Assembly (NCBI GenBank): GCA_963855995.1
Contig: OY979729.1
Coordinates: 10,000,115 to 10,064,114, forward strand
Source of the DNA: Muricea muricata
Lineage: Eukaryota; Cnidaria; Anthozoa; Malacalcyonacea; Plexauridae
Length of the DNA: 64,000 nt
Direction: 5' to 3'
Part shown: positions 16,793 to 46,808 of the stretch, piece by piece
Position numbering within the stretch: the stretch's first letter is position 1
How the letters are laid out: each line of letters begins with the position of its first letter
Program-made: the position numbers and the translations under genes
Notes under the pieces: generated by a model
The model's input: only the letters and a program-made list of their open reading frames with translations
Database searches by the model: none
What the model was told of the DNA's origin: nothing

Positions 16793-16794
16793 AA

Positions 16795-19646: not shown

Positions 19647-19654
19647 CTATTAAG

Positions 19655-20236: not shown

Positions 20237-20435
20237 GGCAATTTAATTTTAATTTTGTGAATTTCGATTACAAAACATGCCTTGGACTGTCGACCAATTG
20301 ATTTCGTCAGGCGATTACAGACTTGTGAGAGGAGGGGGGTAGCCTAATCACTAAAATGTAGTGAAAAAAGGACTTTCCATCTAATGGTGGGAGCAGGTTG
20401 GCGGGAACACTGTAGCAAAAACACTGATTTTCCCT

Positions 20436-20671
20436 GTAGCAAAAAAGATGGCAAATGTCGATTTTACCAGAGTGCATGGTAGTCTGAAATTGTTTAAAAA
20501 GGCAAATTAACGTCTTTTAAAGAACAGACAGAAGACAATAGGTTATTTTCACACTTGTGTTAAAATTTCAATCCAGTAGCTTTGTTTCTTGTCATCTTTT
20601 CCCACGTATTCTTTCTTGATACCTGCAATGCATTCTGGTAAAATCGACATGTCGCCATCTTTTTTGCTACG
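20436..20671. mobile_element. MITE with GTAGCAAAAAAGATGGC termini (left arm)
   Basis: The ends GTAGCAAAAAAGATGGC and GCCATCTTTTTTGCTAC are inverted and continue through TGTCGATTTTACCAGA. A second, diverged member lies at 26128-26356. Both have mirror copies in the right arm (45936-46170 and 40253-40481), so they inserted before the large duplication. Confidence 0.85.
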
Positions 20672-22111
20672 GTGAATGCAAGGAAAAGTGCACCGTGTGA
20701 CAGGGCCTTAAGGGTAAGAGGTGGATAGAGAAGGAGACGGAGCAGTTACAAGTGCAAGAAAAATTGCACCGTGTGACAGGGCCTTGAGGGTGGGAGGTGG
20801 ATAGGAGGAGACAGAGCAGGATGTGGGAGTCGTGCAAGGTCGGGATGTTAAAAAAGAACAAGGAATGTTATGTTTTTAATGCCTTTAGACATTTCTTGAG
20901 GCAATTAAAATTCAAACTGTCAAATCCAAACACTGTACAGAATGGCCGACTTTACGTGGTCTTTAGTTTTTACACAACCACTTGCATTGTTATCTTTTGC
21001 AGTTTGTTTACCATTTCAGTTATCTATCTTCAATAGAATTCTTTGAAATTTGTTTGTAGATCAACAAAATGCTTAACCTCCTCTCAACAACTGGCAGATT
21101 ATGAAAAATGAAATTGTTAAAGGTATTGGAATATTGCATGTACAATATTGAATATGGGACAATTTGGGACAGTATAATTTTGGACATGACGGTTTCATTC
21201 TCACCTAATTTGACGATTATTTTGTGGGTACACATACCATGGAATCTCATGTGCTCCAGAAGCATTTTAATCTTAGAAAAAGTCAAATAATGATGAACTG
21301 TGTTTTAAAAGAAAGTTAGAATCTTATTTGGTTCAAATCAATTGAATTATGGCCCAAGAGTTCATGAAAACACATACAAAAGGCTTTCTTAAAAAACTGA
21401 AATATCAAATCTAGCAATTTTATATGTTATGCCTCTAAACAACACAATTCTGTTTCTAAAAATTGGTACCCTACTAGACCTATATGCATGATTATACTAA
21501 TTTGGACATATTTATTTTTACCCATTAAAATATAAATTTGTGTTTAATCATTCGTGTTTGTCATTATTTGACTTTGTAATGTTGATTAAACATAAGGAGA
21601 TTGAGGTGACTTTGCCAGAAACAAAAACATCCATTATTATACTAAAATTTCAATATATGTAGCAATTAAAACTAACCACAGGAAATATATTTCTACTTTT
21701 TAATTGAAATGTTTCTGTTATATGCACTATATCATATTTTTGATAAAAAATTACAACACCTATGTTATTTCCTGGTTTACTATCTCAATCATCTTTTGTT
21801 TAAGCTGGCTTTGAGTGTTCATTTGAAAGTTTGGAAAGTTCATTTGAAAATCACAATAGTTCTCAATGTTATATTGGACCCTTTAAAGTTAAAAAAATAC
21901 TTTGTAATATTTTATACTACTGGTAATTTATCTTAGATACAGACTTTGTGATTTTGTACTAGAATGTTGACTTTCAAACTTTAAGATGAACTACTTATTA
22001 AGGACAAAATAAGCTAGCATATTGTCTTTTGTTTACAAAGTGGAACTTGTTTGGAATTGAGATGAACTGATGCAGTTGTTCTTTAACTTTATCAATTAAT
22101 TACATATCTTA

Positions 22112-22297
22112 AATGAAAAAGAAAACCACAACTTGCCAAATAAATTCTGTGGGCTCTTTTTATTAGCAAAGAAAAGATGTGGCAGATGTAAGAATTTAAG
22201 AGTAAAAAAGTTTCCTTGGACTAAAAAAATTGACAGTATGCCAGATTTTCTAGATAAACAAGCAGTACAGATGTTGGCCAATAATAAGTATAAGTAA
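22112..22297 (+). pseudogene. possible coding fragment, unknown
   Basis: An open stretch without ATG reading ...LLAKKRCGRCKNLRVKKFPW, then KIDSMPDFLDKQAVQMLANN, then KYK and stop TAA at 22295. Composition (KRCGRCK pair of cysteines, balanced charged helix) looks more protein-like than neighbouring frames. Mirror copy at 44312-44497 (-). Not recognised; could be a transposon remnant or chance. Confidence 0.2.
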
Positions 22298-23874
22298 CTA
22301 CAATTTTTAATTTTAAAAGTTTTCTATTGATGCCTGGATACAGTAAATACTTTACCAGAGTTCTTCGTATTACATCAACTTGAAAAAGTTTTAAGTCACA
22401 TGAAGCTTTTAGTTGATACTATGTAATTTCAAATTTTACAGACTTCTTAATTAACATGCCAAATTTACCTTGTTGAACATAAGGTCTTTCCTGAGAAAAA
22501 GTAAAACTGTCTGGCATTATATGGAGTAGAATAATTTAAATTAGTTTGAGACTTTGATTTGATAACAATTTTGATTTGTACTATTTACAATACAAGTGAC
22601 CGGGTTGTATCGGATATACAAACCCAAGCTGAAGGCGAGATATCTGACATACACAGATGCGAATGTTGTAAATGGCTTGTGAAGCTCGTCAATTTTATAC
22701 ATCAGATCTATAGCAAAGTGATTTTGAAAATACCGATTCTGTAAGATGAGAAAATGATTTCTTTTGTGTTTCCTGTATGATTTATTACTTTATAAGTTTC
22801 TTAATTAAAATTACAACATATTGCCTACTGGAACTTTTTATATTGTTTGGTTGTGGTGAATTTGTATTTTGGCAATTGAAATATTTCTGAATTTGTATGT
22901 GCATTTCCTTTGCTTCAGTTCAAGTTTACATTTCAAATATTCCACTTTGTAATACTTGCGTGGTAATAATAATATAAGAAAACAGGTTTACATGGCTCTT
23001 GAATATAGTCTTTTCAACAAGTAAGTAAAGATGAATTTATACTTCAAAGAGATATGTTCCTAACCTGACAATGGTACCTTCCAAAAAGACTAAATTTAAA
23101 TTGATTCTTCGAATAAATTTTTTACTTTTCAATCCAAGATCAATCTAAGTTATGTATTTCTACTTTTATTTTGGTCTCTTTAACACTGAAACTATCAATT
23201 GTATATAAAGCAACTTCACTATCGAGTGACTTCATTAGTTGCTGGGCAAAGCCAAAGCATTGATTTTTCGGCTGTTTTCAATGAAAAATAGAATTTTGCC
23301 CAAAGTTATTTCAAATAAATTATCACAATTTGAACAAAAAGCTTCTGTTCTTGTGCCCACCAGAAAAATGAGATGTCTGAGACTTTCTTTGTATTTTTTT
23401 GCGAAAAATAGATCGCATGCACTGTTATGCAAAGAAAAGTGTAAGAGATTGGTTTCTGAAAAATGTCGTGCTACACACAATATTCTAAAAATGCTTGGTT
23501 TTTATTCTATGTATTTTTGAATTTTTTGTTAAAAAAAATAAAGGTAGCAATGTTTAGTGCATTTCACATTGTCAGGTTAGAAACGCAATAAGAAAAATGT
23601 GGCTCCGAACATTACAGCTTGGTCAATTTGGAATTTATAAAAAAATCGTTTCTTCGTTGTTTTTCGACGTTTTGAAGGGTTGTTTCGAGTACAAAAAAGT
23701 ATTTTTAGGAAGAATTATGTGCCCACGTTACATGTCTCAAAGCCATCAAAATTCGTTGGTAATTCGTGCATGTATTTTTTCTGACTTATAAAAGCACAAT
23801 TGATTAAAAATGATATTTTTCTTTTGACAAAAATACCTTTCTTCTGTGAGGCTGGCTGTATTTGAAAAAGCGTT

Positions 23875-23965
23875 GGTCAACGCTCCGCCAAAACTCGTGG
23901 GTTTTCTCCGGGTACTCCGGTTCTTCCCACTGGGAGAGTTGACAGGGTAGTTACATATGGTTATA
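23875..23965 (+). repeat. SINE-tail fragment
   Basis: GTGGGTTTTCTCCGGGTACT followed by CCGGTTC matches the region downstream of the B-box in the tRNA-derived repeat at 30185-30430. No Pol III boxes here, so a 5'-truncated copy. Mirror copy in the right arm near 42650-42735. Confidence 0.5.
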
Positions 23966-24433
23966 AAAATGTGACTAACTTTTGAAAACCTTTCTACTTA
24001 GACTTGTTAAGCCTTCTCGTCATCTCTATCAGTTGCATGTTTTGAGCCACATGTTTTTCTTTGTAATTGTGAAACAACTCGTTATATGCTGGGTAAACCT
24101 TTGCAAAACTCTCAAAATTTATCACTTCAAGTTGTTTCATTGTTATAATATATTTTGAAGTATAAACATTTACTTACGTTGAAAAGACCCAAGTTTTTTA
24201 GGACTTTGTTCATTCACTTGTGTTATTGTTCTCTCTGCCATGTTCTGTTTTCTTCTGTTGTTATTTTAATAAGTACAATGTGTGGTAGTTAATCTCTTTT
24301 TATTGTTATTCAAATTGTATGTAATCTTTACAAATTTTTTCAATAAATTGTTTACAAATTTTACTTGTGACCCCTTTTTAATTAAAAATTCAATTCCCAT
24401 GGGAATTGAGAAATTGAATAAAAAAAATCCCCC

Positions 24434-24549
24434 TACCCCGGCCAGCTCCCCAAGTGCCACTTCCACCTAAGTAGAAGTACTTATACATGTAGTACAAGTA
24501 CTTCTACTTATTCACGGTGGAAGTAGCACTCGGAGAACTGGCCGGGGTA
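24434..24549. repeat. foldback hairpin, TACCCCGGCCAG ends
   Basis: Arms TACCCCGGCCAGCTCC...GTGCCACTTCCACC and AAGTAGAAGTACTT pair across a short ACATGTAG loop. Mirror copy 42060-42175. Next to it (~24390) is the palindrome CAATTCCCATGGGAATTG. Confidence 0.85.
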
Positions 24550-25384
24550 GCCGGCAAAGAGAAGACCAACTTTGCAAGTGCTAATACAATTGCTAAGTTG
24601 ATCTTCCCTAGAGAGCAGCCGCGCGTACCTAACAAATTAAAACAACAAACGTTAGTGACTTAAGTACTTAGCATGCAAATTTGATTCCCAAAGCCAAAAT
24701 GTCAAGTGCCCCCCGCTGATCCTACCAACTGCCTACCTGCCTCAGTTCTAAGCTGTCTTCCTCAGTTCTAAGCTCCTGCATTCCATTCGTTACCTTCACT
24801 TTCCTCACCATCGCACAGTCACTCACAGCTGATAAACCCGCATGCACCACCACCACCCCGACTGCCACCCAATTTCGAAAATTAAAAGAGTTAAAATTTC
24901 GGTAAAGTATGCATTTTAAATGCAATTTATTTGGATATTTTAGATCAAACGTAAACAGAAAAAGCTCGTACATAAAAACAGGTGAGAATTCTATTTAAAA
25001 TTTGCTTGCAAAATATAAAACTTAATTCGCATTTTTCTTAGTTAATAGTATAGATCAATTTAGTTGATGTTGAAACCTACTCTTAACTGTTTTGTTAGAA
25101 GTGACGACAGATTTTGGTTTTTAAGCATACTTTCAAAAATTTTAATTCCTTTAATAAACCTAATCCCATGCAACTTACACACGGCGCACACCCTCGCAGT
25201 CCATACATTTAGCTAATAAATTACGTTATAAACAAAAAAGCAAAATAAAAAGATAAATTACGTTATCTCTAGCTACTTAAACCCACTTAGACTGAGTTTT
25301 TGATTGAATTTTCAAACGTAAAACCTTAGCTGAATGGGCATGGGCTTTTCGTTGTGTTAACTGTTCCGGAGTAAATATAAACCT

Positions 25385-25626
25385 GGGGCCGGTTGTATCA
25401 AAGGCGTTTAGCTTAAACGGTGGATAAGTGAAATTTAAAAATCAGTTTTACACCTAGTACGGAACCGAAATTATGAGTTGAAATAGAATAAATATTTAGT
25501 TTTATATATAATTGTTCTTCTCAGGTCAAATAACTTCAGCTGGTTTGTTTATACAACATGGAAACTTGTTTCATATTTTTGACTTATCCACCGTTTAAGC
25601 TAAACGCCTTTGATACAACCGGCCCC
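25385..25626. mobile_element. 242-bp MITE with ~45-bp perfect TIRs
   Basis: Begins GGGGCCGGTTGTATCAAAGG and continues CGTTTAGCTTAAACGGTGGA TAAGT; ends with the exact complement. Mirror copy 40983-41224, so it predates the inverted duplication. Confidence 0.9.
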
Positions 25627-26127
25627 TGATACTTACCAAAGTCCAAGGCTGGGTCAAATAAGCATGAGAATTAGGCAAAAATAAAAAGCAATTGAAACTC
25701 AACAGATTCACTAAAGTTGGTTTTTTTTTGGCAACTTATATCCTTAAGTGTAGATGACATGCAATTTTTAATGCCGTAATTCTCACACTTATTTAACCGA
25801 AACGCCTTCATTTGCATGGTACCTCGCAGCTGCTCTCAAACCACCTTCGTAATTTGCTTTAGTGTACACAAACAATGACTTCATTGTTCCTGCTTACCAA
25901 AACAAATCTGAAAGCACCAAGATACTTATCATATTAATAATCAAAGAGGATTCGCATTATGCAGTAATTACCATAAACAGACGCATCACCATTGAAACAA
26001 AGCATGCCGTATTCCCATGGGAATTTAAAATGCACAAAAAAATATAATGATCCTACTGATTTGCATGGATGTATGAACCAAATTAGCTAAGAAACAAAGA
26101 AATGATATATTCCCTTGGGAATTTAAT

Positions 26128-26356
26128 GTAGCAAAAAGATGGCGGGTGTTGATTTTACCAGAATGCCTTGCGGTCTGAAATCGTTTAAAAACTTAAGGTA
26201 AATTAACCTCGTTTGAGGAACAGACAGATAGGTTATTTTGTCACTTGTGTTAAAATTCCGTCCATTAGCTTATCTTAAATATCATTTCACTGGTATTCTT
26301 GATTGATACCCGCATTAAATTCTGGTAAAATCGACATGCCACCATCTGTTTTGCTA
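26128..26356. mobile_element. MITE, second member of the GTAGCAAAA family
   Basis: Ends GTAGCAAAAAGATGGC and ATGCCACCATCTGTTTTGCTAC-type complement, with GATTTTACCAGAATG / ATTCTGGTAAAATC inside. Related to 20436-20671 but clearly diverged. Mirror copy 40253-40481. Confidence 0.85.
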
Positions 26357-27297
26357 CGGTGAATTGGAATACAAGTCAAATTTTCTCGCTTTTTAACCAG
26401 AGAACACATTCTTTAAAGGTAGAACGACGGAATTGATCGTTTGCAATCGACGCCATCTTTGTTGACGTTTGAAACACATGGCAACCACAAAGTATCTATT
26501 CATTATATCTGATCCTATCGAGCCATACATCTTTAAAGTATCATTCATAATACGCTAAAACTAACGATGAAATAGTAAATTGACACAAGTACTTCGCTGT
26601 AAACAGCTGAAGTAATCTGCAGAGTCAACCAAGATGGCGCCCAATCACACGAAATGACGTCATGTGCAAACCAAGAATAGTGACAAAATGCATCAACTAT
26701 AATTTAGTGGCATTATTACGAAACTTATTTTTGTAAAACGTTCAATCCTACATGTTATTTTGTTTTGTTTTTAGAAATATCCAAATCCAAATGTTAGAGA
26801 CGAAATTTCCAGGTGTTAAGGTATTGTTTCTTTAAAAAATATTGTCGACATTTACCATATTTTTACCTGTTTTTTGACTCGAAAATTGACTGCCAAACTC
26901 CTAGGTATTCTATTTAATTATTTTGTTGAATGTATTTGATATCAATGTTATTTCAATCCAATTTTTTTCACTTAATTTGCTGTCTTTTCTTTTTCATTAA
27001 CGAGAAATATCTATTAAATCCTCTTTGATCCCTCAATAATAAGTATCTTGTTTTCTACTAACTTGCACATTACCACTACTTTCTATTACAATGTCGTGTC
27101 TTCTTATTCTTGTGGATTGTTGTTTTGTGGGTCTTGCCGTCCAGGATCGTTCATTCTTTTCTCTTCTTGTGCGTTTTTTTCACATCCCATCACCCTTTGC
27201 AATAGTAGAAAGAATTAAGTCATGAGATGATAGTTACGAATAATTTATAAACTATAACATGATAAGTTTCTTGTACGTTTGCATGGTGAATACAATA

Positions 27298-27383
27298 TAC
27301 TTATTAAGCTTTGTGGAAACACCACGTAAATTTATTATTGCAATAATAAATTTACGTGGTGTTTCCACAAAGCTTAATAAGTA
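27298..27383. repeat. 86-bp perfect palindrome, left arm only
   Basis: 43-bp arms with no spacer, centre between 27340 and 27341 (TTATTATTG|CAATAATAA), containing TGTGGAAACACCACGTAA. The enclosing ~133-bp segment is flanked by AAACTATAACAT on both sides and is absent from the mirror arm, where a single AAACTATAACAT is present (near 39365-39380, complement). Confidence 0.95.
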
Positions 27384-27403
27384 AACTATAACATATTAAG
27401 CAC

Positions 27404-27538
27404 TTATTGGATGAGGTTTTTGTGATATGCGAAATGATCAATGTCGAGGTAAGAGTTATCAGCCGAGCCGAAGGCGAGTCAGATAACTCTTACCAAGACA
27501 TTGATAATTTTGCATATCACAAAAACCGAATCCGATAA
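27404..27538. repeat. foldback hairpin with GC-rich loop
   Basis: Arms of ~57 bp (TTATTGGATGAGGTTTTTGT, then GATATGC, ATCAATGTC, GGTAAGAGTTATC) around the loop AGCCGAGCCGAAGGCGAGTC. Mirror copy near 39222-39356. The adjacent 70- and 87-aa ORFs overlap its arm and are not supported as genes. Confidence 0.85.
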
Positions 27539-27758
27539 TTGCTTTATTATACATTGTAAGTCTTTTTCCTCGAGCAATTGACGAATTTCGCCTTCGGAAG
27601 AGCTTAAAAAGCAAGATGCCATAACATGAAACAGAAAATATCGAAAAAATGTTGTTGCCATGCCAACCATTGATGCCAACGAATACCGCATACTGTAATA
27701 ATCTGCACCGTAGGCTCAACATGCAGATAACTCAGTTATCTGCTAGCAGATAACTGAG

Positions 27759-27982
27759 CCATAGAATAAGAATACATAGAAGGGCCACTCGCGTCGGAGC
27801 CTTTGGAGTTTTTGAAGCCGCGCATGTCGCATTACGCACGTTATTAGCATTTTCTCAGCCAGTCAATTGCATTTTCTGGCCTATAGGAATGCTGAACTGG
27901 CTGGTGGCAGCCAGTAAACTGCATAAACATAGTGTGACATGTTGCACTGCTGAGTGGCCCTTCTATGTATTCTTATTGTATG
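27759..27982. mobile_element. 224-bp MITE, left-arm-only insertion with empty site in right arm
   Basis: TIRs of ~31 bp ending AATAAGAATACATAGAAGGG CCACTC. ACTGAG stands on both sides (27753-27758, 27983-27988). The mirror arm has the uninterrupted sequence GATAACTGAGTTATCTG near 39015-39035, an exact empty site. The insertion broke a 42-bp palindrome made of CAGATAACTCAGTTATCTG units that is still intact there. Confidence 0.92.
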
Positions 27983-28068
27983 ACTGAGTTATCTGCAGAT
28001 TGTGTGATAGTCGCATTTATCTGCATACAACTGACCAATCACAACGCATAAAACAACTGCAATGTATA

Positions 28069-28433
28069 GTAATTAACACTTATTGACTGAGACCGAGGGA
28101 AACAGTATGTTTTGTGGACCAGAGACTGTCGATGTCGAGGGTCCACAAAACATACTGCTTTCCCGAGGTCTCAGTCAATAAGTATTTTATTATATACTGA
28201 GTGCCAAAAGAGAAGAAAAGTACCACAAATCAATCAAACATGTGTAAAAAGGATTACCTTTTACCTGACATGGCTACGTGAGGCTTTGTGGATTTGTTGT
28301 CTACCGGTGAATAAAAGTAATGTCCACCGCTTAGCTACGTTGCCAGGGAGACAATAGAATTTCTCCACTATCACGTGATACGTTCTTAACCAATAAGAAA
28401 CAGGAATAAATGAACTTTGACACTCAGTATATT
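28069..28433. mobile_element. second left-arm-only insertion: hairpin plus TIR segment
   Basis: 28078-28182 is a hairpin (CTTATTGACTGAGACC...AACAGTATGTTTTGTGGACC and complement). 28191-28433 has inverted ends ATATACTGAGTG(C/T)CAAA. The mirror arm joins GCAATGTATA directly to ATAAAATAG (near 38915-38935). Probably one composite insertion or two successive ones. Confidence 0.8.
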
Positions 28434-29009
28434 ATAAAATAGTATTAATTAGGCCGGCCAAATTATTGTGTAAGCTGTTAATATGAAATTTTTTTATTAA
28501 AATCTCGAGAATCATTAATAAATCGTGAGCAAAACACAAAAGAAAATCATAGCCGTGAAGGAGTCTTTATTTCTCACACGCACACAACTTGCAGCTGCCC
28601 TAATTTATGAATTTAGATTAAAATATCTCGAGAATTAAACAACACGTAAGGAGTGTGTAAATTCTTAAAGCTCTTTCGAACAATAAAAATTAATATCTCG
28701 CACTAATCTCTCTCAAAAGCTCTCTCAAATTTATTGCCGATATCTCTTTGAGAATTACTGTGCACGTGAAATGTAACTTATATCAAAACTAGCTTACTTC
28801 AAGCTGTTTGGGAATCAAGATTTTACGTGTCAACGAGATCAAATATGAATCTAAGATGGCAGACAGCGCATTAAATTTCTATCTTTACGACCAACTCCCC
28901 AACGAAAGGCTTTAATTCGCTCGAAAGTCGAATTTTGTTTTTTTTTATTGTTTCAGGTAGTGAAAGATCCTGTGTGCTTTTTACAGTACTACCGACACTA
29001 GCAACGTTA

Positions 29010-29540
29010 GTGCGAGATGTTAATTTTTATTGAAACAAAAGCTGAACTGCTAAAAAAATGGAAACGACAGGATAAAATAAAAAAACTTACTTTCACTCTA
29101 TCTTTGGATCTTCTTGGCTTCGGTTCTCGTTTCATCATGCTGTTTATGGTTTCATCTGGTTGGCGCACTCTCTTCATGGAGCATCAAGGCGGTCCAGTAG
29201 GTAACTAGCTCACTCGTGTCCAGTCAACCAACATAAAATAAGGAGAAAATTAATGTTACAAAATATTTTAGAATATAGGACACTAAGCTTCAATTGAATT
29301 GACTTTAACAAACCGTACATTGTGATAGTATTTGCATCTTAACATCTGATGGAGACGGCTTGTGATTTACTTCTTATGTCGATATGAATTCTTTCCCATC
29401 TTGTTGCATCATTAGTTGATGGTTGTTGTATTCACTTTTTACTTGGCATTCTTTGAAAAAAAAATTACGATGTTCAGAAAACTGTTTACAAGATAAGCAA
29501 AGAAAACTACGTTCACAAGCATTAGAGAGGACTAAGTAAT
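29010..29540 (-). mobile_element. R block in left arm
   Basis: Reverse-strand R block: the ATGAAGAGAGTGCGCCAACC segment runs into GTAAGT at about 29085, preceded by TACTGGACCG and followed by TTCAGCTTTTGTTTCAATA. The 30-codon segment is open and has lost exactly one codon relative to the mirror copy at 37840-38330 (+). The 128-aa ORF at 29374-29760 overlaps conserved R sequence that is not open in other copies. Confidence 0.65.
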
Positions 29541-30184
29541 TATAATAGGCGTGACAGGTCACAGAGGTTAGTCGACGAAGAAACTCATGGACAAATTCCC
29601 GGCATGATGATACCCCGATAGCAAGAAATACAGCAAGTGTAGAACGTGTACGTGTGAGCTTAAACTGTATGTATGCAACTCCAAGAAAAGCGCAACACAA
29701 AATGGCGGAATTTAAAGACATTTCTGGTGTCATTTCCAGTTCCCTAACTTTCGCGGACAAATATATTTATATATTTTTCTCAAATTTTTTTGAAGTAAAT
29801 CTAGATGGATTTTGTGAATAAACAAATTAAAAAAAGTATTGCCCACGTTAGGAAACTAGAACGGGCGCCCAAGAATGCCCACAATTTCTCCAATCTGGAT
29901 TATATTTATTGATTGCGCAAATGACTGATAAAAAATAAGAGAGTAATAAAATACCAAATGGTTTCCTCTTCAAGATAGTGTCATACATGCGCGCGGCATT
30001 TCGGGATATTTGGGAAAACTCGTGTTGAAGTTGAACCTAAGGCAACATGCCAAGTACATGGATGACGCTATCCTGCTCAGGAAACTATTTAGTAATTGTC
30101 TTACAAAATGATGACAGTGAAACACAAGTCAACGCCACGGCATTTAAATTTCTCGTGTAGGATTGTTTGATCCTGCACAGTAAT

Positions 30185-30430
30185 AGCCAAGTGGCGCAAT
30201 CGTCAGAGCAAACGCCTATCACATGTGAGGTCGTGGGTTCAATCCTTACTTCAGACTCGTGACACCCATGTGAGGAGTTAGTCAGTCGTGGGTTTATTCC
30301 GGGTACTCCGGTTTGCGAATGTTGACTGGATGGTTAAAATTGTAAAATATCAGTAATCACCGGAACACGGGTACTTAACTAAACTGCTGACGATGAGGCG
30401 GAACTCATAATGAATTAATGAAAATGTGTT
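30185..30430 (+). repeat. tRNA-derived SINE (left arm)
   Basis: A-box-like TGGCGCAATCGT (30192-30203) and B-box GGGTTCAATCC (30236-30246) at tRNA spacing. Downstream is a tRNA-unrelated body with CCGGGTACTCCGGTTT. Mirror copy on the minus strand at about 36990-37232. A SINE insertion older than the inverted duplication. Confidence 0.75.
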
Positions 30431-30559
30431 TCACTGTAGTTATCATATAATGTAATTGCCAAGCTGAATGAATAATTCTCCAGTAACTACGTCATATGAA
30501 TAACTTACAATTATGAGAGTAGTGGGGGGGGCAGCATAAAGATTGAAGTAGTGTCAAGG

Positions 30560-30790
30560 AAGGGGTACTACCCTGACGGGTACTAGGCGAAGAAGTAGAG
30601 TAAACAGGAGGAAGAAAATTAAATTGGAGTAAATAAGGGGGATTGGGGTAAAGAAGGGGAGAAGCAGGATAAAGAAACCAGTGGAAGGGGGTGCTATCCT
30701 GGAAGGAGTACCCGGGAAAGAAGAGGGTGAACAGGAGGAAAAGTAGATTGGAGAAAAGAAAGGGGAAATTAAACGGATCAGGAAATTCAG
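30560..30790 (+). repeat. purine-rich tract (left arm)
   Basis: About 230 bp dominated by G and A on the plus strand, with GGTACTACCCTGACGGGTAC near its start. Mirror tract 36620-36870. The Pro/Ser/Phe/Leu-rich ORFs here come from base composition. Confidence 0.7.
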
Positions 30791-31553
30791 ACTTGCAATT
30801 GAAATGAAAGGCAGCTCATTGGTCATGTAAACACTCGTTGAATCATGGTTCTCGCTTGCCTTTAGCTTGGAATCATCTTTGAATTTGAACTGAAAGTCTG
30901 AATTTGCATGTTTCTTGTATAGAGTGCAGTGTATCAGAACAGAAGAGGTTTTGAAGAAAAAGAAAGAAAGAATAAAAGTAAGTTAAAATTTGTAAAGAAT
31001 AATGAAGAAACTATTGGTACAGCACTTGATACATGATGATAATCATCATTATAAACTCTCTATTAATCCGGGGGGGGGGGTATAATAGAGAATTTGCAAT
31101 GATAGTAAGTATATTGTAATATTTGGGTTTTTACCACTAAATCCTCTTGAAAGTTCTTTTTGGCTGTGGCTTCTCTCATCACAGTTGTCTGTGCTTGTCT
31201 TGCAAAATCTCTGGAATATCTATAACGTGAAGGTCAATATTTAAGATTAGAAAAATAGAAACCGTAAAATAGAAAGAAATTTAAATCGTGGCGAATACTT
31301 TTTACGGTCTTGCTGGCATGACAAAAAGAGAGTATAGATTTATAAGATCATGTTGATTTATCCTTTATCTGAACTATATTTAACTTAGATTTTAAAATAG
31401 ATTTCACCCTGGTAAGCAGACCGAATGGGTTTTCAAACAAGATAACATTTAATGACTAAAACGTGCACAGAATAGTTAGAGAATGCTTACATGTCGAATA
31501 AAAATCCAATACTTTTAATGTCCAACTACACAATAGCGATTTTCGTTGCATTT

Positions 31554-31694
31554 CTAGACTGGAGAAGAAGACGACGCCATTTTGATTTTGATTTCTCCCG
31601 ACAACGGCAGATTTGTCTTCGCAATTTTTTTCCATTTCTTCGTCGTTTTAGCTCCAATTTGCTCGTTGTGTTTCTTTCGTACCTTCCTCGCCAT
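31554..31694 (-). CDS. 46-codon ORF, unknown (left-arm copy)
   Basis: Exact mirror of 35660-35800. Starts at ATG 31694 and stops at TAG (complement at 31554-31556). See the right-arm copy for the product. Identical sequence in both arms reflects the duplication, not selection. Confidence 0.22.
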   Translation of the reverse strand: MARKVRKKHNEQIGAKTTKKWKKIAKTNLPLSGEIKIKMASSSSPV

Positions 31695-32084
31695 TTCCGT
31701 ACAACCAATGGACATTTATACTCAAGATTAAGACTGTATTGAGACTTTCAAAATGTTCGTCAGGAGACATAAAAATCGAAGCTTCTTCTTCGGGTTGCAG
31801 AAGCAAATGACGTCAGACGACCTTTGTCCGCCAGCAAATACCCGTATGTATAACATTCAATGATCTTTTTAGGAAGCTGAAAATCAGTTTTTATTGCGCG
31901 AACGAAATGTTTTTGCCATTATTTCTTACTCAGGTCTTTGTTCTACTACTTTACTTCCAGTTTAGTTAGGTAACTTGCCAAAAGAAACGCCTGTAAGGGA
32001 CAATTTTGCAATTTTTTTTATTTGGATGCTGATGAACAAGGGAAGACTCGTTAAAGCTTTCATTGGCAAATATCTTTCCCTCCG

Positions 32085-32200: not shown

Positions 32201-32351
32201 CTGAATTCAAAGCTGGGCGTGGAGTGCAGGAAAACACTAGGCAGTACCGCGAGGCCAAGGAGGCAAACGTTATTTTCCTAGTGTTGTTAACTAATATTTA
32301 AGCAAATTTCATTAACTTGACTGTTGGGGACAGACCTGTAGGGTTGGTGCA

Positions 32352-35659: not shown

Positions 35660-35800
35660 ATGGCGAGGAAGGTACGAAAGAAACACAACGAGCAAATTGG
35701 AGCTGAAACGACGAAGAAATGGAAAAAAATTGCGAAGACAAATCTGCCGTTGTCGGGAGAAATCAAAATCAAAATGGCGTCGTCTTCTTCTCCAGTCTAG
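35660..35800 (+). CDS. 46-codon ORF, unknown (right-arm copy)
   Basis: MARKVRKKHNEQIGAETTKK, then WKKIAKTNLPLSGEIKIK and MASSSSPV, stop TAG. Good start context (GGAAATGGCG). Very basic N-terminal half with a helix-like spacing, hydroxylated tail. Not recognised. Could be a small protein or a first exon; could equally be chance within repeat DNA. Confidence 0.25.
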   Translation: MARKVRKKHNEQIGAETTKKWKKIAKTNLPLSGEIKIKMASSSSPV

Positions 35801-37839
35801 AAATGCAACGAAAATCGCTATTGTGTAGTTGGACATTAAAAGTATTGGATTTTTATTCGACATGTAAGCATTCTCTAACTATTCTGTGCACGTTTTAGTC
35901 ATTAAATGTTATCTTGTTTGAAAACCCATTCGGTCTGCTTACCAGGGTGAAATCTATTTTAAAATCTAAGTTAAATATAGTTCAGATAAAGGATAAATCA
36001 ACATGATCTTATAAATCTATACTCTCTTTTTGTCATGCCAGCAAGACCGTAAAAAGTATTCGCCACGATTTAAATTTCTTTCTATTTTACGGTTTCTATT
36101 TTTCTAATCTTAAGTGTTGACCTTCACGTTATAGATATTCCAGAGATTTTGCAAGACAAGCACAGACAACTGTGATGAGAGAAGCCATAGCCAAAAAGAA
36201 CTTTCAAGAGGATTTAGTGGTAAAAACCCAAATATTACAATATACTTACTATCATTGCAAATTCTCTATTATACCCCCCCCCCGGATTAATAGAGAGTTT
36301 ATAATGATGATTATCATCATGTATCAAGTGCTGTACCAATAGTTTCTTCATTATTCTTTACAAATTTTAACTTACTTTTATTCTTTCTTTCTTTTTCTTC
36401 AAAACCTCTTCTGTTCTGATACACTGCACTCATAGATAATATACAAGATATACATGATATACAAGAAACATGATATACAAGAAACATGATATACAAGAAA
36501 CATGCAAATTCAGACTTTCAGTTCAAATTCAAAGATGATTCCAAGCTAAAGGCAAGCGAGAACCATGATTTAACGAGTGTTTACATGACCAATGAGCTGC
36601 CTTTCATTTGAATTGCAAGTCTGAATTTCCTGATCCGTTTAATTTCCCCTTTCTGTACTCCAATCTACTTTTCCTCCTGTTCACCCTCTTCTTTCCCGGG
36701 TACTCCTTCCAGGGTAGCACCCCCTTCCACTGGTTTCTTTATCCTGCTTCTCCCCTTCTTTACCCCAATCCCCCTTATTTACTCCAATTTAATTTTCTTC
36801 CTCCTGTTTACTCTACTTCTTCGCCTAGTACCCGTCAGGGTAGTACCCCTTCCTTGACACTACTTCAATCTTTATGCTGTCCCCCCCCCACTACTCTCAT
36901 AATTGTAAATTATTCATATGACGTAGTTACTGGAGAATTATTCATTCAGCTTGGCAATTACATTATATGATAACTACAGTGAAACACATTTTCATTAATT
37001 CATTATGAGTTCCGCCTCATCGTCAGCAGTTTAGTTAAGTACCCGTGTTCCGGTGATTACTGATATTTTACAATTTTAACCATCCAGTCAACATTCGCAA
37101 ACCGGAGTACCCGGGATAAACCCACGACTGACTAACTCCTCACATGGGTGTCACGAGTCTGAAGTAAGGATTGAACCCACGACCTCACATGTGATAGGCG
37201 TTTGCTCTGACGATTGCGCCACTTGGCTATTACTGTGCAGGATCAAACAATCCTACACGAGAAATTTAAATGCCGTGGCGTTGACTTGTGTTTCACTGTA
37301 ATCATTTTGTAAGACAATTACTAAATAGTTTCCTGAGCAGGATAGCGTCATCCATGTACTTGGCATGTTGCCTTAGGTTCAACTTCAACATGAGTTTTCC
37401 CAAATATCCCGAAATGCCGCGCGCATGTATGACACTATCTTGAAGAGGAAACCATTTGGTATTTTATTACTCCCTTTTTTTTTATCAGTCATTTGCGCAA
37501 TCAATAAATATAATCCAGATTGGAGAAATTGTGGGCATTCTTGGGCGCCCGTTCTAGTTTTCTAACGTGAGAAAAATATATAAATATATTTGTCCGCGAA
37601 AGTTAGGGAACTGGAAATGACACCAGAAATGTCTTTAAATTCCACCATTTTGTGTTGCGCTTTTCTTGGAGTTGCATAGATACAGTTTAAGCTTACACGT
37701 ACACGTTCTACACTTGCTGTACTTCTTGCTATCGGAATATCATCATGCCGGGAATTTGTCCATGAGTTTCTTCGTCGACTAACCTCTGTGACCTGTCACG
37801 CCTATTATAATTACTTAGTCCTCTCTAATGCTTGTGAAC

Positions 37840-38330
37840 GTAGTTTTCTTTGCTTATCTTGTAAACAGTTTTCTGAACATCGTAATTTTTTTTTCAAAGA
37901 ATGCCAAGTAAAAAGTGAATACAACAACCATCAACTAATGACGCAACAAGATGGGAAAGAATTCATATCGACATAAGAAGTAAATCACAAGCCGTCTCCA
38001 TCAGATGTTAAGATGCAAATACTATCACAATGTACGGTTTGTTAAAGTCAATTTCAATTAACGCTTAGTGTCCTATATTCTAAAATATTTTGTAACATTA
38101 ATTTTCTCCTTATTTTATGTTGGTTGACTGGACACGAGTGAGCTAGTTACCTACTGGACCGGCGTGATGTTCCATGAAGAGAGTGCGCCAACCAGATGAA
38201 ACCATAAACAGCATGATGAAACGAGAACAACCGAAGCCAAGAAGATCCAAAGATAGAGTGAAAGTAAGTTTTTTGATTTTATCTTGTCGTTTCTATTTTC
38301 TTTAGCAGTTCAGCTTTCGTTTCAATAAAA
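37840..38330 (+). mobile_element. R block in right arm
   Basis: Mirror of 29010-29540. The segment from ATG at ~38177 reads MKRVRQPDETINSMMKREQP and KPRRSKDRVK up to GTAAGT. A pyrimidine-rich tract and CTTTAGCAG follow, the arrangement expected of an exon-donor-intron-acceptor. Confidence 0.65.
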
Positions 38331-41300
38331 ATTAACATCTCGCACTAACGTTGCTAGTGTTGGCAGTGCTGTAAAAAGCACACAGGATCTTTCACTACAT
38401 TAAACAATAAAAAAACAAAATTCCACTTTCGAGCGAATTAAAGCCTTTCGTTGGGGAGTTGGTCGTAAAGATAGAAATTTAATGCGCTGTCTGCCATCTT
38501 AGATTCATATTTGATCTCGTTGACACGTAAAATCTTAATTCCCAAACAACTTGAAGTAAGCTAGTTTTGATAGAAGTTACATTTCACCTGCAAAGTAATA
38601 GTTGAAGAGATATTGGTAGTAAATTTGAGAGAGCTTTTGAGAGAGATTAGTGCGAGATATTAATTTTTATTGTTCGAAAGAGCTTTAAGAATTTACACAT
38701 TCCTTACGTGTTGTTTAATTCTCGAGATATTTTGATTTAAAATCATAAATTAGGGTAGCTGCAAGTTGTGTGCGTGTGAGAAATAAAGACTCCTTCACGG
38801 CTATGATTTTCTTTTGTGTTTTGTTCACGATTTACTAATGATTCTCGAGATTTTAATAAAAAAATTTCATATTAACAGCTTACACAATAATTTGGCCGGC
38901 CTAATTAATAAACTATTTTATTATACATTGCAGTTGTTTTATGCGTTGTGATTGATCAGTTGTATGCAGATAAATGCGACTATCACACAATCTGCAGATA
39001 ACTCAGTTATCTGCTAGCAGATAACTGAGTTATCTGGATGTTGAGCCTACGGTGCAGATTATTACAGTATGCGGTATTCGTTGGCATCAATGGTTGGCAT
39101 GGCAACAACATTTTTTCGATATTTTCTGTTTCATGTTATGGCATCTTCCTTTTTAAGCTCTTCCGAGGGCGAAATGCGTCAATTGCTCGAGGAAAAAGAC
39201 TTAAAATGTATAATAAAGCAATTATCGGATTCGGTTTTTGTGATATGCAAAATTATCAATCTCTCGGTAAGAGTTATCTGACTCGCCTTCGGCTCGGCTG
39301 ATAACTCTTACCTCGACATTGATAATTCCGCATATCACAAAAACCTCATCCAATAATTGTTTAATATGTTATAGTTTATAAATTACTCGTAACTATCATC
39401 TCATGATTTAATTCTTTCTACTATTGCAAAGGGTGATGGGATGTGAAAAAAACGCACAAGAAAAGAAAAGAATGAACGATCCTGGACGACAAGACCCACA
39501 AAACAACAATCCACAAGAATGAGAAGACACGACATTGTAATAGAAAGTAGTGGTAATGTGCAAGTTAGTAGAAAACAAGATACTTATTATTGAGGGATCA
39601 AAGAGGATTTAATAGATATTTCTCGTTAATGAAAAAGAGAAGACAGCAAATTAAGTGAAAAAAATTGGATTGAAATAACATTGATATCAAATACATTCAA
39701 CAAAATAATTAAATAGAATACCTAGGAGTTTGGCAGTCAATTTTCGAGTCAAAAAACATGTCGACAATATTTTTTAAAGAAACAATACCTTAACGCCTGG
39801 AAATTTCGTCTCTAACATTTGGATTTGGATATTTCTAAAAACAAAACAAAATAACATGTAGGATTGAACGTTTTACAAAAATAAGTTTCGTAATAATGCC
39901 ACTAAATTATAGTTGATGCATTTGGTCACTATTTTTGGTTTGCACATGCCGTCATTTCGTGTGATTGGGCGCCATCTTGGTTGACTCTGCAGATTACTTC
40001 AGCTGTTTACAGCGAAGTACTTGTGTCAATTTACTATTTCATCGTTAGTTTTAGCGTATTATGAATGATACTTTAAAGATGTATGGCTCGATAGGATCAG
40101 ATATAATGAATAGATACTTTGTGGTTGCCATGTGTTTCAAACGTCAACAAAGATGGCGTCGATTGCAAACGATCAATTCCGTCGTTCTACCTTTAAAGAA
40201 TGTGTTCTCTGGTTAAAAAGCGAGAAAGTGTGACTTGTATTCCAATTCACCGTAGCAAAACAGATGGTGGCATGTCGATTTTACCAGAATTTAATGCGGG
40301 TATCAATCAAGAATACCAGTGAAATGATATTTAAGATAAGCTAATGGACGGAATTTTAACACAAGTGACAAAATAACCTATCTGTCTGTTCCTCAAACGA
40401 GGTTAATTTACCTTAAGTTTTTAAACGATTTCAGACCGCAAGGCATTCTGGTAAAATCAACACCCGCCATCTTTTTGCTACATTAAATTCCCAAGGGAAT
40501 ATATCATTTCTTTGTTTCTTAGCTAATTTGGTTCATACATCCATGCAAATCAGTAGGATCATTATATTTTTTTGTGCATTTTAAATTCCCATGGAAATAC
40601 GGCATGCTTTGTTTCAATGGTGATGCGTCTGTTTATGGTAATTACTGCATAATGCGAATCCTCTTTGATTATTAATATGATAAGTATCTTGGTGCTTTCA
40701 GATTTGTTTTGGTAAGCAGGAACAATGAAGTCATTGTTTGTGTACACTAAAGCAAATTACGAAGGTGGTTTGAGAGCAGCTGCGAGGTACCATGCAAATG
40801 AAGGCGTTTCGGTTAAATAAGTGTGAGAATTACGGCATTAAAAATTGCATGTCATCTACACTTAAGGATATAAGTTGCCAAAAAAAAACCAACTTTAGTG
40901 AATCTGTTGAGTTTCAATTGCTTTTTATTTTTGCCTAATTCTCATGCTTATTTGACCCAGCCTTGGACTTTGGTAAGTATCAGGGGCCGGTTGTATCAAA
41001 GGCGTTTAGCTTAAACGGTGGATAAGTCAAAAATATGAAACAAGTTTCCATGTTGTATAAACAAACCAGCTGAAGTTATTTGACCTGAGAAGAACAATTA
41101 TATATAAAACTAAATATTTATTCTATTTCAACTCATAATTTCGGTTCCGTACTAGGTGTAAAACTGATTTTTAAATTTCACTTATCCACCGTTTAAGCTA
41201 AACGCCTTTGATACAACCGGCCCCAGGTTTATATTTACTCCGGAACAGTTAACACAACGAGAAGCCCATGCCCATTCAGCTAAGGTTTTACGTTTGAAAA

Positions 41301-44300
41301 TTCAATCAAAAACTCAGTCTAAGTGGGTTTAAGTAGCTAGAGATAACGTAATTTATCTTTTTATTTTGCTTTTTTGTTTATAACGTAATTTATTAGCTAA
41401 ATGTATGGACTGCGAGGGTGTGCGCCGTGTGTAAGTTGCATGGGATTAGGTTTATTAAAGGAATTAAAATTTTTGAAAGTATGCTTAAAAACCAAAATCT
41501 GTCGTCACTTCTAACAAAACAGTTAAGAGTAGGTTTCAACATCAACTAAATTGATCTATACTATTAACTAAGAAAAATGCGAATTAAGTTTTATATTTTG
41601 CAAGCAAATTTTAAATAGAATTCTCACCTGTTTTTATGTACGAGCTTTTTCTGTTTACGTTTGATCTAAAATATCCAAATAAATTGCATTTAAAATGCAT
41701 ACTTTACCGAAATTTTAACTCTTTTAATTTTCGAAATTGGGTGGCAGTCGGGGTGGTGGTGGTGCATGCGGGTTTATCAGCTGTGAGTGACTGTGCGATG
41801 GTGAGGAAAGTGAAGGTAACGAATGGAATGCAGGAGCTTAGAACTGAGGAAGACAGCTTAGAACTGAGGCAGGTAGGCAGTTGGTAGGATCAGCGGGGGG
41901 CACTTGACATTTTGGCTTTGGGAATCAAATTTGCATGCTAAGTACTTAAGTCACTAACGTTTGTTGTTTTAATTTGTTAGGTACGCGCGGCTGCTCTCTA
42001 GGGAAGATCAACTTAGCAATTGTATTAGCACTTGCAAAGTTGGTCTTCTCTTTGCCGGCTACCCCGGCCAGTTCTCCGAGTGCTACTTCCACCGTGAATA
42101 AGTAGAAGTACTTGTACTACATGTATAAGTACTTCTACTTAGGTGGAAGTGGCACTTGGGGAGCTGGCCGGGGTAGGGGGATTTTTTTTATTCAATTTCT
42201 CAATTCCCATGGGAATTGAATTTTTAATTAAAAAGGGGTCACAAGTAAATTTTGTAAACAATTTATTGAAAAAATTTGTAAAGATTACATACAATTTGAA
42301 TAACAATAAAAAGAGATTAACTACCACACATTGTACTTATTAAAATAACAACAGAAGAAAACAGAACATGGCAGAGAGAACAATAACACAAGTGAATGAA
42401 CAAAGTCCTAAAAAACTTGGGTCTTTTCAACGTAAGTAAATGTTTATACTTCAAAATATATTATAACAATGAAACAACTTGAAGTGATAAATTTTGAGAG
42501 TTTTGCAAAGGTTTACCCAGCATATAACGAGTTGTTTCACAATTACAAAGAAAAACATGTGGCTCAAAACATGCAACTGATAGAGATGACGAGAAGGCTT
42601 AACAAGTCTAAGTAGAAAGGTTTTCAAAAGTTAGTCACATTTTTATAACCATATGTAACTACCCTGTCAACTCTCCCAGTGGGAAGAACCGGAGTACCCG
42701 GAGAAAACCCACGAGTTTTGGCGGAGCGTTGACCAACGCTTTTTCAAATACAGCCAGCCTCACAGAAGAAAGGTATTTTTGTCAAAAGAAAAATATTATT
42801 TTTAATCAATTGTGCTTTTATAAGTCAGAAAAAATACATGCACGAATTACCAACGAATTTTGATGGCTTTGAGACATGTAACGTGGGCACATAATTCTTC
42901 CTAAAAATACTTTTTTGTACTCGAAACAACCCTTCAAAACGTCGAAAAACAACGAAGAAACGATTTTTTTATAAATTCCAAATTGACCAAGCTGTAATGT
43001 TCGGAGCCACATTTTTCTTATTGCGTTTCTAACCTGACAATGTGAAATGCACTAAACATTGCTACCTTTATTTTTTTTAACAAAAAATTCAAAAATACAT
43101 AGAATAAAAACCAAGCATTTTTAGAATATTGTGTGTAGCACGACATTTTTCAGAAACCAATCTCTTACACTTTTCTTTGCATAACAGTGCATGCGATCTA
43201 TTTTTTGCAAAAAAATACAAAGAAAGTCTCAGACATCTCATTTTTCTGGTGGGCACAAGAACAGAAGCTTTTTGTTCAAATTGTGATAATTTATTTGAGA
43301 TAACTTTGGGCAAAATTCTATTTTTCATTGAAAACAGCCGAAAAATCAATGCTTTGGCTTTGCCCAGCAACTAATGAAGTCACTCGATAGTGAAGTTGCT
43401 TTATATACAATTGATAGTTTCAGTGTTAAAGAGACCAAAATAAAAGTAGAAATACATAACTTAGATTGATCTTGGATTGAAAAGTAAAAAATTTATTCGA
43501 AGAATCAATTTAAATTTAGTCTTTTTGGAAGGTACCATTGTCAGGTTAGGAACATATCTCTTTGAAGTATAAATTCATCTTTACTTACTTGTTGAAAAGA
43601 CTATATTCAAGAGCCATGTAAACCTGTTTTCTTATATTATTATTACCACGCAAGTATTACAAAGTGGAATATTTGAAATGTAAACTTGAACTGAAGCAAA
43701 GGAAATGCACATACAAATTCAGAAATATTTCAATTGCCAAAATACAAATTCACCACAACCAAACAATATAAAAAGTTCCAGTAGGCAATATGTTGTAATT
43801 TTAATTAAGAAACTTATAAAGTAATAAATCATACAGGAAACACAAAAGAAATCATTTTCTCATCTTACAGAATCGGTATTTTCAAAATCACTTTGCTATA
43901 GATCTGATGTATAAAATTGACGAGCTTCACAAGCCATTTACAACATTCGCATCTGTGTATGTCAGATATCTCGCCTTCAGCTTGGGTTTGTATATCCGAT
44001 ACAACCCGGTCACTTGTATTGTAAATAGTACAAATCAAAATTGTTATCAAATCAAAGTCTCAAACTAATTTAAATTATTCTACTCCATATAATGCCAGAC
44101 AGTTTTACTTTTTCTCAGGAAAGACCTTATGTTCAACAAGGTAAATTTGGCATGTTAATTAAGAAGTCTGTAAAATTTGAAATTGCATAGTATCAACTAA
44201 AAGCTTCATGTGACTTAAAACTTTTTCAAGTTGATGTAATACGAAGAACTCTGGTAAAGTATTTACTGTATCCAGGCATCAATAGAAAACTTTTAAAATT

Positions 44301-46183
44301 AAAAATTGTAGTTACTTATACTTATTATTGGCCAACATCTGTACTGCTTGTTTATCTAGAAAATCTGGCATACTGTCAATTTTTTTAGTCCAAGGAAACT
44401 TTTTTACTCTTAAATTCTTACATCTGCCACATCTTTTCTTTGCTAATAAAAAGAGCCCACAGAATTTATTTGGCAAGTTGTGGTTTTCTTTTTCATTTAA
44501 GATATGTAATTAATTGATAAAGTTAAAGAACAACTGCATCAGTTCATCTCAATTCCAAACAAGTTCCACTTTGTAAACAAAAGACAATATGCTAGCTTAT
44601 TTTGTCCTTAATAAGTAGTTCATCTTAAAGTTTGAAAGTCAACATTCTAGTACAAAATCACAAAGTCTGTATCTAAGATAAATTACCAGTAGTATAAAAT
44701 ATTACAAAGTATTTTTTTAACTTTAAAGGGTCCAATATAACATTGAGAACTATTGTGATTTTCAAATGAACTTTCCAAACTTTCAAATGAACACTCAAAG
44801 CCAGCTTAAACAAAAGATGATTGAGATAGTAAACCAGGAAATAACATAGGTGTTGTAATTTTTTATCAAAAATATGATATAGTGCATATAACAGAAACAT
44901 TTCAATTAAAAAGTAGAAATATATTTCCTGTGGTTAGTTTTAATTGCTACATATATTGAAATTTTAGTATAATAATGGATGTTTTTGTTTCTGGCAAAGT
45001 CACCTCAATCTCCTTATGTTTAACCAACATTACAAAGTCAAATAATGACAAACACGAATGATTAAACACAAATTTATATTTTAATGGGTAAAAATAAATA
45101 TGTCCAAATTAGTATAATCATGCATATAGGTCTAGTAGGGTACCAATTTTTAGAAACAGAATTGTGTTGTTTAGAGGCATAACATATAAAATTGCTAGAT
45201 TTGATATTTCAGTTTTTTAAGAAAGCCTTTTGTATGTGTTTTCATGAACTCTTGGGCCATAATTCAATTGATTTGAACCAAATAAGATTCTAACTTTCTT
45301 TTAAAACACAGTTCATCATTATTTGACTTTTTCTAAGATTAAAATGCTTCTGGAGCACATGAGATTCCATGGTATGTGTACCCACAAAATAATCGTCAAA
45401 TTAGGTGAGAATGAAACCGTCATGTCCAAAATTATACTGTCCCAAATTGTCCCATATTCAATATTGTACATGCAATATTCCAATACCTTTAACAATTTCA
45501 TTTTTCATAATCTGCCAGTTGTTGAGAGGAGGTTAAGCATTTTGTTGATCTACAAATTTCAAAGAATTCTATTGAAAATAGATAACTGAAATGGTAAACA
45601 AACTGCAAAAGATAACAATGCAAGTGGTTGTGTAAAAACTAAAGACCACGTAAAGTCGGCCATTCTGTACAGTGTTTGGATTTGACAGTTTGAATTTTAA
45701 TTGCCTCAAGAAATGTCTAAAAGGCATTAAAAACATAACATTCCTTGTTCTTTTTTAACCTCCCGACCTTGCACGACTCCCACATCCTGCTCCGTCTCCT
45801 CCTATCCACCTCCCACCCTCAAGGCCCTGTCACACGGTGCAATTTTTCTAGCACTTGTAACTGCTCCGTCTCCTTCTCTATCCACCTCTTACCCTTAAGG
45901 CCCTGTCACACGGTGCACTTTTCCTTGCATTCACCGTAGCAAAAAAGATGGCGACATGTCGATTTTACCAGAATGCATTGCAGGTATCAAGAAAGAATAC
46001 GTGGGAAAAGATGACAAGAAACAAAGCTACTGGATTGAAATTTTAACACAAGTGTGAAAATAACCTATTGTCTTCTGTCTGTTCTTCAAAAGACGTTAAT
46101 TTGCCTTTTTAAACAATTTCAGACTACCATGCACTCTGGTAAAATCGACATTTGCCATCTTTTTTGCTACAGGGAAAATCTAC

Positions 46184-46328
46184 TCTTAAGTAAATTTGTG
46201 ACAAATGTTTGGTACGTTAAAAAACCCCAGCAAACTGTGATGGAAACTTGCATTTGCCAATTTTACATCTCCCAATAGTAGAATTGCATTTCAAGTTGCA
46301 AGAAAAATTGCATTGTGACAGGACCTTT
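46184..46328. mobile_element. truncated GCCCTGTCAC-type MITE, right arm only
   Basis: Matches the interior and one end of the element at 3635-3833 (TTTGTGACAAATGTTTG, CAAACTGTGATGGAAAC, TTGCATTGTGACAGGACCTTTA). The left arm has a short unrelated stretch at the mirror site (~20410-20435). Confidence 0.7.
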
Positions 46329-46505
46329 ATTCTCCAGTGTTCCCGCCAACCTGCTCCCACCATTAGATGGAAAGTCCTTTTTTCACTACATTTTAGTAAT
46401 TAGGCTACCCCCCTCCTCTCACAAGTCTGTAATCGCCTGACGAAATCAATTGGTCGACAGTCCAAGGCATGTTTTGTAATCGAAATTCACAAAATTAAAA
46501 TTAAA

Positions 46506-46808
46506 TTGCCTTTTTTCAATAAATTTGAACCAGAACCAACTCTATACATAGAACTGTCTCAGCATACTTTCTTCGACAATCTCAACAATTCAAGACCTCA
46601 TTCAGTTTCTATAGCGGATTTCATGGTATTATTATCGAACCAACTTCAACTGAAAACGGTAGCCTTAATCTTACATGCGACCATAGCCATGCTTGGAAAG
46701 CACAAACTTACAATACTCGAAAATTGTACTTATTTCCAGTCTGATCTCTCAAAAATCGATCTCTATGCACAATCTAAGTACTTTGCTACAAATAATGATA
46801 GAAAATAA
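46506..46808 (+). pseudogene. possible coding fragment in 46.5-47.2 kb single-copy segment
   Basis: The frame starts in arm sequence and continues as FEPEPTLYIELSQHTFFDNL, SVSIADFMVLLSNQLQLKTV and LILHATIAMLGKHKL to stop at 46806. Amphipathic, even composition, no low complexity. No family recognised, no ATG of its own in the single-copy part. The rest of this segment (46810-47230) has no feature I can name. Confidence 0.2.

Follow-up and report, generated by a model that had tools for sequence, protein, structure and literature searches.

The 64,000-nucleotide stretch of the anthozoan Muricea muricata genome considered here (assembly GCA_963855995.1, contig OY979729.1, positions 10,000,115 to 10,064,114; hereafter the window) contains a 26-kb near-palindrome, formed by two long arms around a short spacer, which is the core of a dispersed 29-kb repeat and not a single locus. 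This repeat, whose ends are fixed, likely spread as a composite non-autonomous Helentron, and its arms probably still convert each other after each insertion. With somewhat more reserve, we also favour a wider reading in which a rolling-circle transposon captured the palindrome and scattered hundreds of self-recombining copies, the arms of which would convert, invert and overshoot, copying the adjacent host DNA in mirror image. The mechanism of spread proposed here is the likely one as judged from the anatomy of the unit.

A dispersed repeat with a palindromic core

Self-alignment of the window pairs a left arm (20232/20237-33411) with a right arm (46515-33973) at 98.99% identity across 12,334 aligned bases, confirming the near-palindrome that the initial annotation had described at 20.2-46.5 kb. 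The constant coordinate sum of 66609 reported for the outer part of the arms is equally sound, with 4894 of the 4901 positions in 21100-26000 being complementary under this sum, compared with 1664 and 1663 under the control sums 66608 and 66610. Arm identity per 1-kb bin, run as a check, is 99.7-99.9% in all five bins between 21 and 26 kb; it is lowest (95.9%) in the bin at 28 kb, adjoining the large length differences between the arms. An inverted match exists for 19,160 of the 26,250 30-mers of the palindrome core, and for none in one shuffled sequence. Some details of the first description had to be amended: the short asymmetric centre is there but measures 561 bp, near the 575 bp first given; the 5-kb stretch lacks a net indel, but indels do separate the arms elsewhere, including right-arm gaps of 134, 230 and 365 bp opposite extra left-arm sequence at about 27.2-28.4 kb, and smaller gaps of 141, 63, 58 and 25 bp on either side; and the borders 20237 and 46510 are not where the unit ends, as other copies continue to 16303 and 47643. 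The self-comparison drew on 80 of 325 rows, and a second repeat comparison covered the window outside four tandem-array regions.

A 601-base piece of the left arm has at least 40 matches at about 100% in the genome (40 scored of 744 candidates), 12 of which, window included, form facing pairs 24-27 kb apart. Our sample of 16 copies comprises the window, five paired copies taken whole (C7, C10, C6a, C6b and C4) and 10 of the 28 unpaired matches, whose outer parts were taken; six of the 16 were thus read through. The copy comparisons list matches of at least 150 bp to window 17.5-50 kb, of at least 60 bp, or of more than 150 bp. Both arms are present in all 16 copies, and a tag made of the first 40 bases of the spacer is present in all six copies read through. 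This tag occurs exactly 259 times in the 453-Mb genome (0 for the reversed control); by arithmetic, 259 full copies of about 29 kb each would total near 7.5 Mb, a figure that extends from 16 copies checked. The first 100 of the 259 places, in contig order, fall on contigs C3 (2), C4 (16), C5 (28), C6 (24), C7 (20) and C8 (10), and the exact search, listed in this order, gives none on C1 or C2. Contigs C1-C3 amount to at least 251 Mb, at least 55% of the assembly as judged from the largest match coordinates, yet hold 2 of the 259 tags, and the distribution is therefore far from uniform (binomial ~5e-87). Inner gaps between the listed copies (C4 6.7-15.4, C5 9.6-13.1, C6 4.0-7.3, C7 6.0-9.6, C8 3.3-9.0 Mb) were also noted. 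Chaperonin matches, grouped manually into about 13 loci, correspond to about one set for an animal; three of the loci are on C2, whereas C1 and C3 have none, and C2 at least is thus likely part of the same genome.

This dispersal bears on the origins first suggested for the palindrome. Palindromes of Y chromosomes and other ampliconic regions have near-identical long arms, a short spacer, and conversion and inversion between the arms, and the sex-linked kind bears genes. Unlike them, the present palindrome belongs to a family whose 259 spacer tags are dispersed over many contigs, and no gene domains were found in 20 of its 91 frames, so that an ampliconic or sex-linked palindrome at a single locus finds no support. 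A recent local inverted duplication fares no better, since other copies carry the identical two arm types and spacer, and the palindrome is therefore older than its amplification. As to a misassembly of the window locus, comparison at the level of the assembly speaks against it, given the arms in 16 of 16 copies, their differing flanks and an intact paralogous insertion site.

Older relatives of the palindrome centre (76-87% similar), as well as pieces of 24.2-25.4 kb (91-93% similar), lie beside several copies, and the old centre in the flank of C7 is palindromic too, its arms being 79-85% alike. These diverged relatives near young copies, one of them palindromic, suggest that the palindrome probably had a long history preceding the present burst. 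Diverged centre relatives next to young copies occur at 1-4636 of L009 and in the flanks of L017, L021 and L028.

Ends of the unit and likely mode of spread

The copies keep common sequence out to window positions 47643 (the B end) and 16303 (the A end), where similarity stops. Beyond these points, the adjacent 60 bases of 14 B ends and 7 A ends all differ, except for the two B ends of C7, which share a flank, and the B-to-A spacing of query pieces is 27.8-29.1 kb at seven loci besides the window. When joined, the two flanks of the window copy align to an intact paralogue of the insertion site on the minus strand, at an A-run and with no target-site duplication, and three further relatives of this insertion-site repeat in the window run unbroken through the same place. 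The duplication expected of a cut-and-paste transposon with terminal inverted repeats is thus absent at this one empty site; neither was one seen by eye in four copies bounded by B and A (window, C6a, C6b and C4). An 835-bp self-palindromic repeat (93%) at 47639-48466 adjoins the 5' end; relatives of it are found at 14-16 kb and around 50 kb.

Read from right to left, the unit opens with Ts, followed by ACTCCGCCTGCC within a stable hairpin (dG -12.8, z -4.4). The repeat lies 2-8 nt from the 5' end across copies (5 in the window). At the 3' terminus the same 12-mer stands inverted relative to the 5' end, and the hairpin has a 6-bp stem and a 4-nt loop, 6-7 nt from the end. The exact 12-mer is found in the window only at 16327, 20220 and 47627, that is, at three termini, and allowing up to one mismatch gives four matches (the extra one at 12575) versus 0.05 expected. 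The middle 12-mer belongs to a second 5' end, whose position, 20236, coincides with the start of the palindrome; 20236-16303 is thus a small element with both its own ends, named here the A element. Its 5' part is 88% like 47231-47643, within the block that carries the B end, and the insertion nested in it is absent from the A ends of C10, C6a, C6b, C4 and L036. A 30-mer from the 3' end occurs 639 times in the genome, including 93 times on C1, a contig with no listed spacer tag; this terminus thus also exists without the palindrome.

According to the accessible part of a description of Helentrons and HINEs (PMC4067079), these elements have shared sub-terminal inverted repeats of 11-15 bp and a short palindrome near the 3' end, insert at T-runs with variable boundary Ts and without target-site duplication, and depend on an autonomous partner that encodes a Rep/helicase-endonuclease and has the same ends; in mite families, the distance between repeat and terminus is 2-4 nt on the 5' side and 38-60 nt on the 3' side, and composite transposition has been proposed as a route of capture. 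As far as that part of the source goes, the present repeat resembles Helentron/HINE elements (DINE-1-like) in the 12-bp sub-terminal inverted repeat at both ends, the end hairpins with a 3' palindrome, the T-run site without duplication at the one site tested, boundaries that vary among 14 B ends, the tandem repeats of the A element and the absence of coding capacity as far as found. It differs from them in being a 29-kb unit instead of a short element, in its 26-kb palindromic body, in a 3' repeat nearer the end, and in that no autonomous partner was found for it among 105 scored Rep matches on C1. A giant palindromic Helentron was not found among the titles and abstract openings searched. 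A canonical Helitron was rejected on its end sequences: instead of a 5' TC, a 3' CTRR and insertion between A and T, the ends are T-run/ACTCCGCC and CTTGTT(T). The reversed polarity, with the B hairpin as the 3' end, was dropped, since the Helentron description, in its accessible part, fits the opposite orientation.

The absence of an obvious gene, remarked upon from the start, holds as far as tested, with no Pfam match above the curated cut-off in 20 of the 91 frames of at least 60 aa; weak matches to Pox_F12L and TIG_SUH lie far below it. Neither Pfam searches of 8 of the 17 open reading frames (ORFs) of at least 100 aa in the window, nor Rfam and tRNA scans of the window (the latter with the bacterial code), returned anything informative. 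Elsewhere in the genome, all 150 scored matches to Helitron_like_N (of 352 candidates) exceed the cut-off, the longest open frame being 2738 aa.

In the mechanism we propose, copying would have begun at the 5' end of one element (B), run through the palindrome next to it, continued past the other 5' end (20236) and come to a halt at the 3' hairpin of A, the complete element alongside. Such read-through from B to the 3' hairpin of A would have carried the palindrome along, with a Rep/helicase encoded elsewhere in the genome presumably doing the work. Later breaks on the A side would be repaired off the opposite arm, which may produce conversion, an inverted centre and tracts that overshoot into the flank of the B side.

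Exchange between the arms and mirrored flanks

Gene conversion between the arms, suggested initially from their likeness, is supported by comparison of six copies, as arms within a copy are on average more alike than arms of different copies in two of three tested blocks. Four blocks were picked by hand: outer (20840-22100), mid1 (24900-26000), 28430-29527 and inner, the last of which comprises the arms except one of C6b; the pairing test covered the first three. In the outer block, base differences between the arms within a copy number 0 in C10, C4, C6a and C7, 1 in C6b and 3 in the window, with a between-copy mean of 3.67; in mid1, they number 0 in C10 and C6a, 1 in C4 and the window, 3 in C7 and 4 in C6b, with a between-copy mean of 4.50. 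Among the 10,395 possible pairings of the 12 arms, those as good as the true one number 3 for the outer block, 1 for mid1 and 1 for both combined. The inner block is homogenised in C4 (1 difference), C6a (0) and C7 (0), but not in C10 (17) or the window (11). Homogenised blocks specific to single copies indicate that the tracts differ among copies.

Several results count against so simple a picture of conversion. The block 28430-29527 shows no within-copy clustering, 7245 of the 10,395 pairings being as good as the true one; C6b clusters in neither the outer block nor mid1; the outer arms of C4 are identical to arms of four other copies; and the mid1 distance of C7 merely ties. The two arm types in 28430-29527 stand 25-36 bases apart, C6a and C7 carrying the long type twice and both C4 arms being nearer the short type. 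Exchange between arms seems to be impeded near the large length difference.

Inversion is seen in the window itself, where the centre is inverted relative to the ends. The opposite orientation is found in 15 others (12 of 12 scored A-spacer pairs, plus C10, C6a and C6b), so that, counting copies with a placeable centre and A end, the inverted centre occurs in 1 of 16.

The ends of the 16 copies fall into unequal types. Nine run from B to A, including L029/L039, which has a deletion on the A side, and none from A to A. In another six, B sequence stands on both sides, in five of them with flanking DNA too; the end structures of L030-L035 and L038/L048 are as seen among the matches listed. In C7, 3.7 kb of outside DNA is mirrored with 1 mismatch before the A element resumes from 17004; in L035/L045, about 540 bp are mirrored beyond a truncated B before A resumes from 19843; L032 crosses into A at 17300 without leaving B; L031 has 537 bp mirrored, with about 0.75 kb of sequence from the arm and A retained outside; and in L030 and L033 about 1.6 and 1.2 kb are mirrored. 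An A remnant thus lies outside the B copy in four of these six (C7, L031, L032 and L035). The direction from B into A would fit, as a weak indication, a break near the A border, with six cases versus none (two-sided 0.03; four of the six with an A remnant). Breaks or inserts near 46990 (46980-47101) were observed in L030, L032 and C10, and L033 is without 47034-47100; 46980-47101 is perhaps a fragile spot.

Alternatives, implications and neighbouring features

An unlikely alternative to a Helentron-like spread is that of a DNA transposon that moves by cut and paste and has terminal inverted repeats of great length, similar to foldback elements or Galileo, ending in B and B, with the A-ended copies being derived. 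Such long-repeat transposons are known and, in the accessible part of the source (PMC2775673), share with the present unit the long inverted repeats that make up most of it, the absence of detected coding capacity and the proneness to recombination. Furthermore, L038/L048 (1 of 16) has B at both ends in different flanks with no A end among the matches listed, and B-B spacing near 27.9 kb is found at three further loci, so the A end may not be essential. Against this, the tested site has no target-site duplication, the ends are asymmetric and their anatomy resembles that of Helentrons, the arms reach about 13 kb, no transposase domain was found in 20 of 91 frames, and the A end is present in nine of 16 copies, the six inspected at the terminus ending in different flanks.

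An artefact of assembly, at least for the mirrored flanks, is conceivable because the palindrome is longer than many reads, and the near-identity of these flanks in C7, L031 and L035 in assembly sequence would agree with it. We consider it improbable, given that L030 has 17 base differences, as well as gaps, between its mirrored flanks over 1.17 kb, which argues at the assembly level that such flanks are not always duplicates of one assembly path, that in three copies a mirrored tract is followed by the A element at three different points (17004, 17300 and 19843), and that B-A copies are flanked differently on their two sides. Spread by large-scale segmental duplication or ectopic recombination instead of transposition, which the older centre relatives beside several copies and the mirror-image flanks might recall, is already disfavoured and very improbable, as identity stops at two constant termini with differing bases outside and the insertion site is intact.

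The composite Helentron remains the favoured reading, and the B-B copies just described weigh against it together with the following points. Among the nine B-A copies, the A terminus was inspected in six, and the B block of C10 is broken off at 46990. In L030 and L033, the sequence read past the mirrored tract, a few hundred bases, shows no A sequence, and these copies may therefore be inverted duplications of another kind. The empty-site comparison concerns one site; the 3' hairpin is modestly better than shuffled sequences (9 of 200 as good); and about 25 nt separate the sub-terminal repeat from the 3' end, compared with the 38-60 nt of mite families in the part of the source available. Finally, a search with one 30-mer, that of the 3' end, on one contig, C1, did not place it in the 15 kb downstream, strand for strand, of any of the 105 scored Rep matches there.

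To our knowledge, palindromes kept alike by gene conversion come mostly from few, unique sex-chromosome loci. Here, one palindrome stands in many chromosomal settings, so replicated measurements of tract length, direction, inversion rate and overshoot could be made; if our reading is right, the family would amount to a natural experiment in which palindromes evolve in hundreds of replicates. It would also mean that rolling-circle transposons can carry a 26-kb inverted repeat, that mobilisation is still feasible for an intermediate prone to folding into one giant hairpin, and that mirror-image duplication of the host DNA alongside can follow an insertion at a later time. With 2 of 259 tags on contigs comprising at least 55% of the assembly, the distribution could be used to test where elements of this kind can insert or survive.

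Table 1. Features of the mobile unit and its surroundings in the window.
Feature	Positions	Strand	Basis
Mobile unit as a whole, 31,341 bp, or 29,354 bp excluding the nested insertion; 5' end 47643, 3' end 16303	16303-47643	-	flanks, empty site, lengths
5' terminus (B): T-run, 12-bp sub-terminal repeat 47627-47638, hairpin	47580-47643	-	fold z -4.4, 0/200 shuffles as good
B block, the 1.1 kb between the 5' end and the palindrome	46516-47643	-	self- and copy comparison
Right arm, 'short' arm type	33973-46515	.	self-comparison, arm comparison
Asymmetric spacer, 561 bp; first 40 bases 259 times in the genome	33412-33972	.	
Left arm, 'long' arm type, extra sequence at ~27.2-28.4 kb	20237-33411	.	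self-comparison, arm comparison
Second 5' terminus, at the very border of the arm; same hairpin, 12-mer 20220-20231	20176-20236	-	fold z -3.7, 1/200 shuffles as good
A element, small, non-autonomous, own 5' and 3' ends, ~1.95 kb plus nested insertion	16303-20236	-	copy comparison, folds
Nested insertion, 1,987 bp, 73-bp inverted ends, 7-bp duplication AGCTATT	17659-19645	.	
Tandem repeats of 31/62 bp in the A element	16897-17251	-	repeat scan
3' terminus: 12-mer 16327-16338, then hairpin, ending CTTGTT(T)	16303-16338	-	fold z -2.05, 9/200 shuffles as good
Intact paralogue of the insertion site (empty site)	48340-48620	-	alignment of joined flanks

Outside the unit, an ORF of 617 aa (6509-8362) has relatives in two octocorals, Dendronephthya gigantea (47%, covering 48% of the ORF) and Paramuricea clavata (46%), as well as closer relatives at 87% and 61%, and some of its relatives carry the Pfam domain PF19031. 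Tandem arrays occupy 56156-58590 (365-bp units), 52865-53795 (43/64/150-bp) and 4117-4784 (30-bp) of the window.

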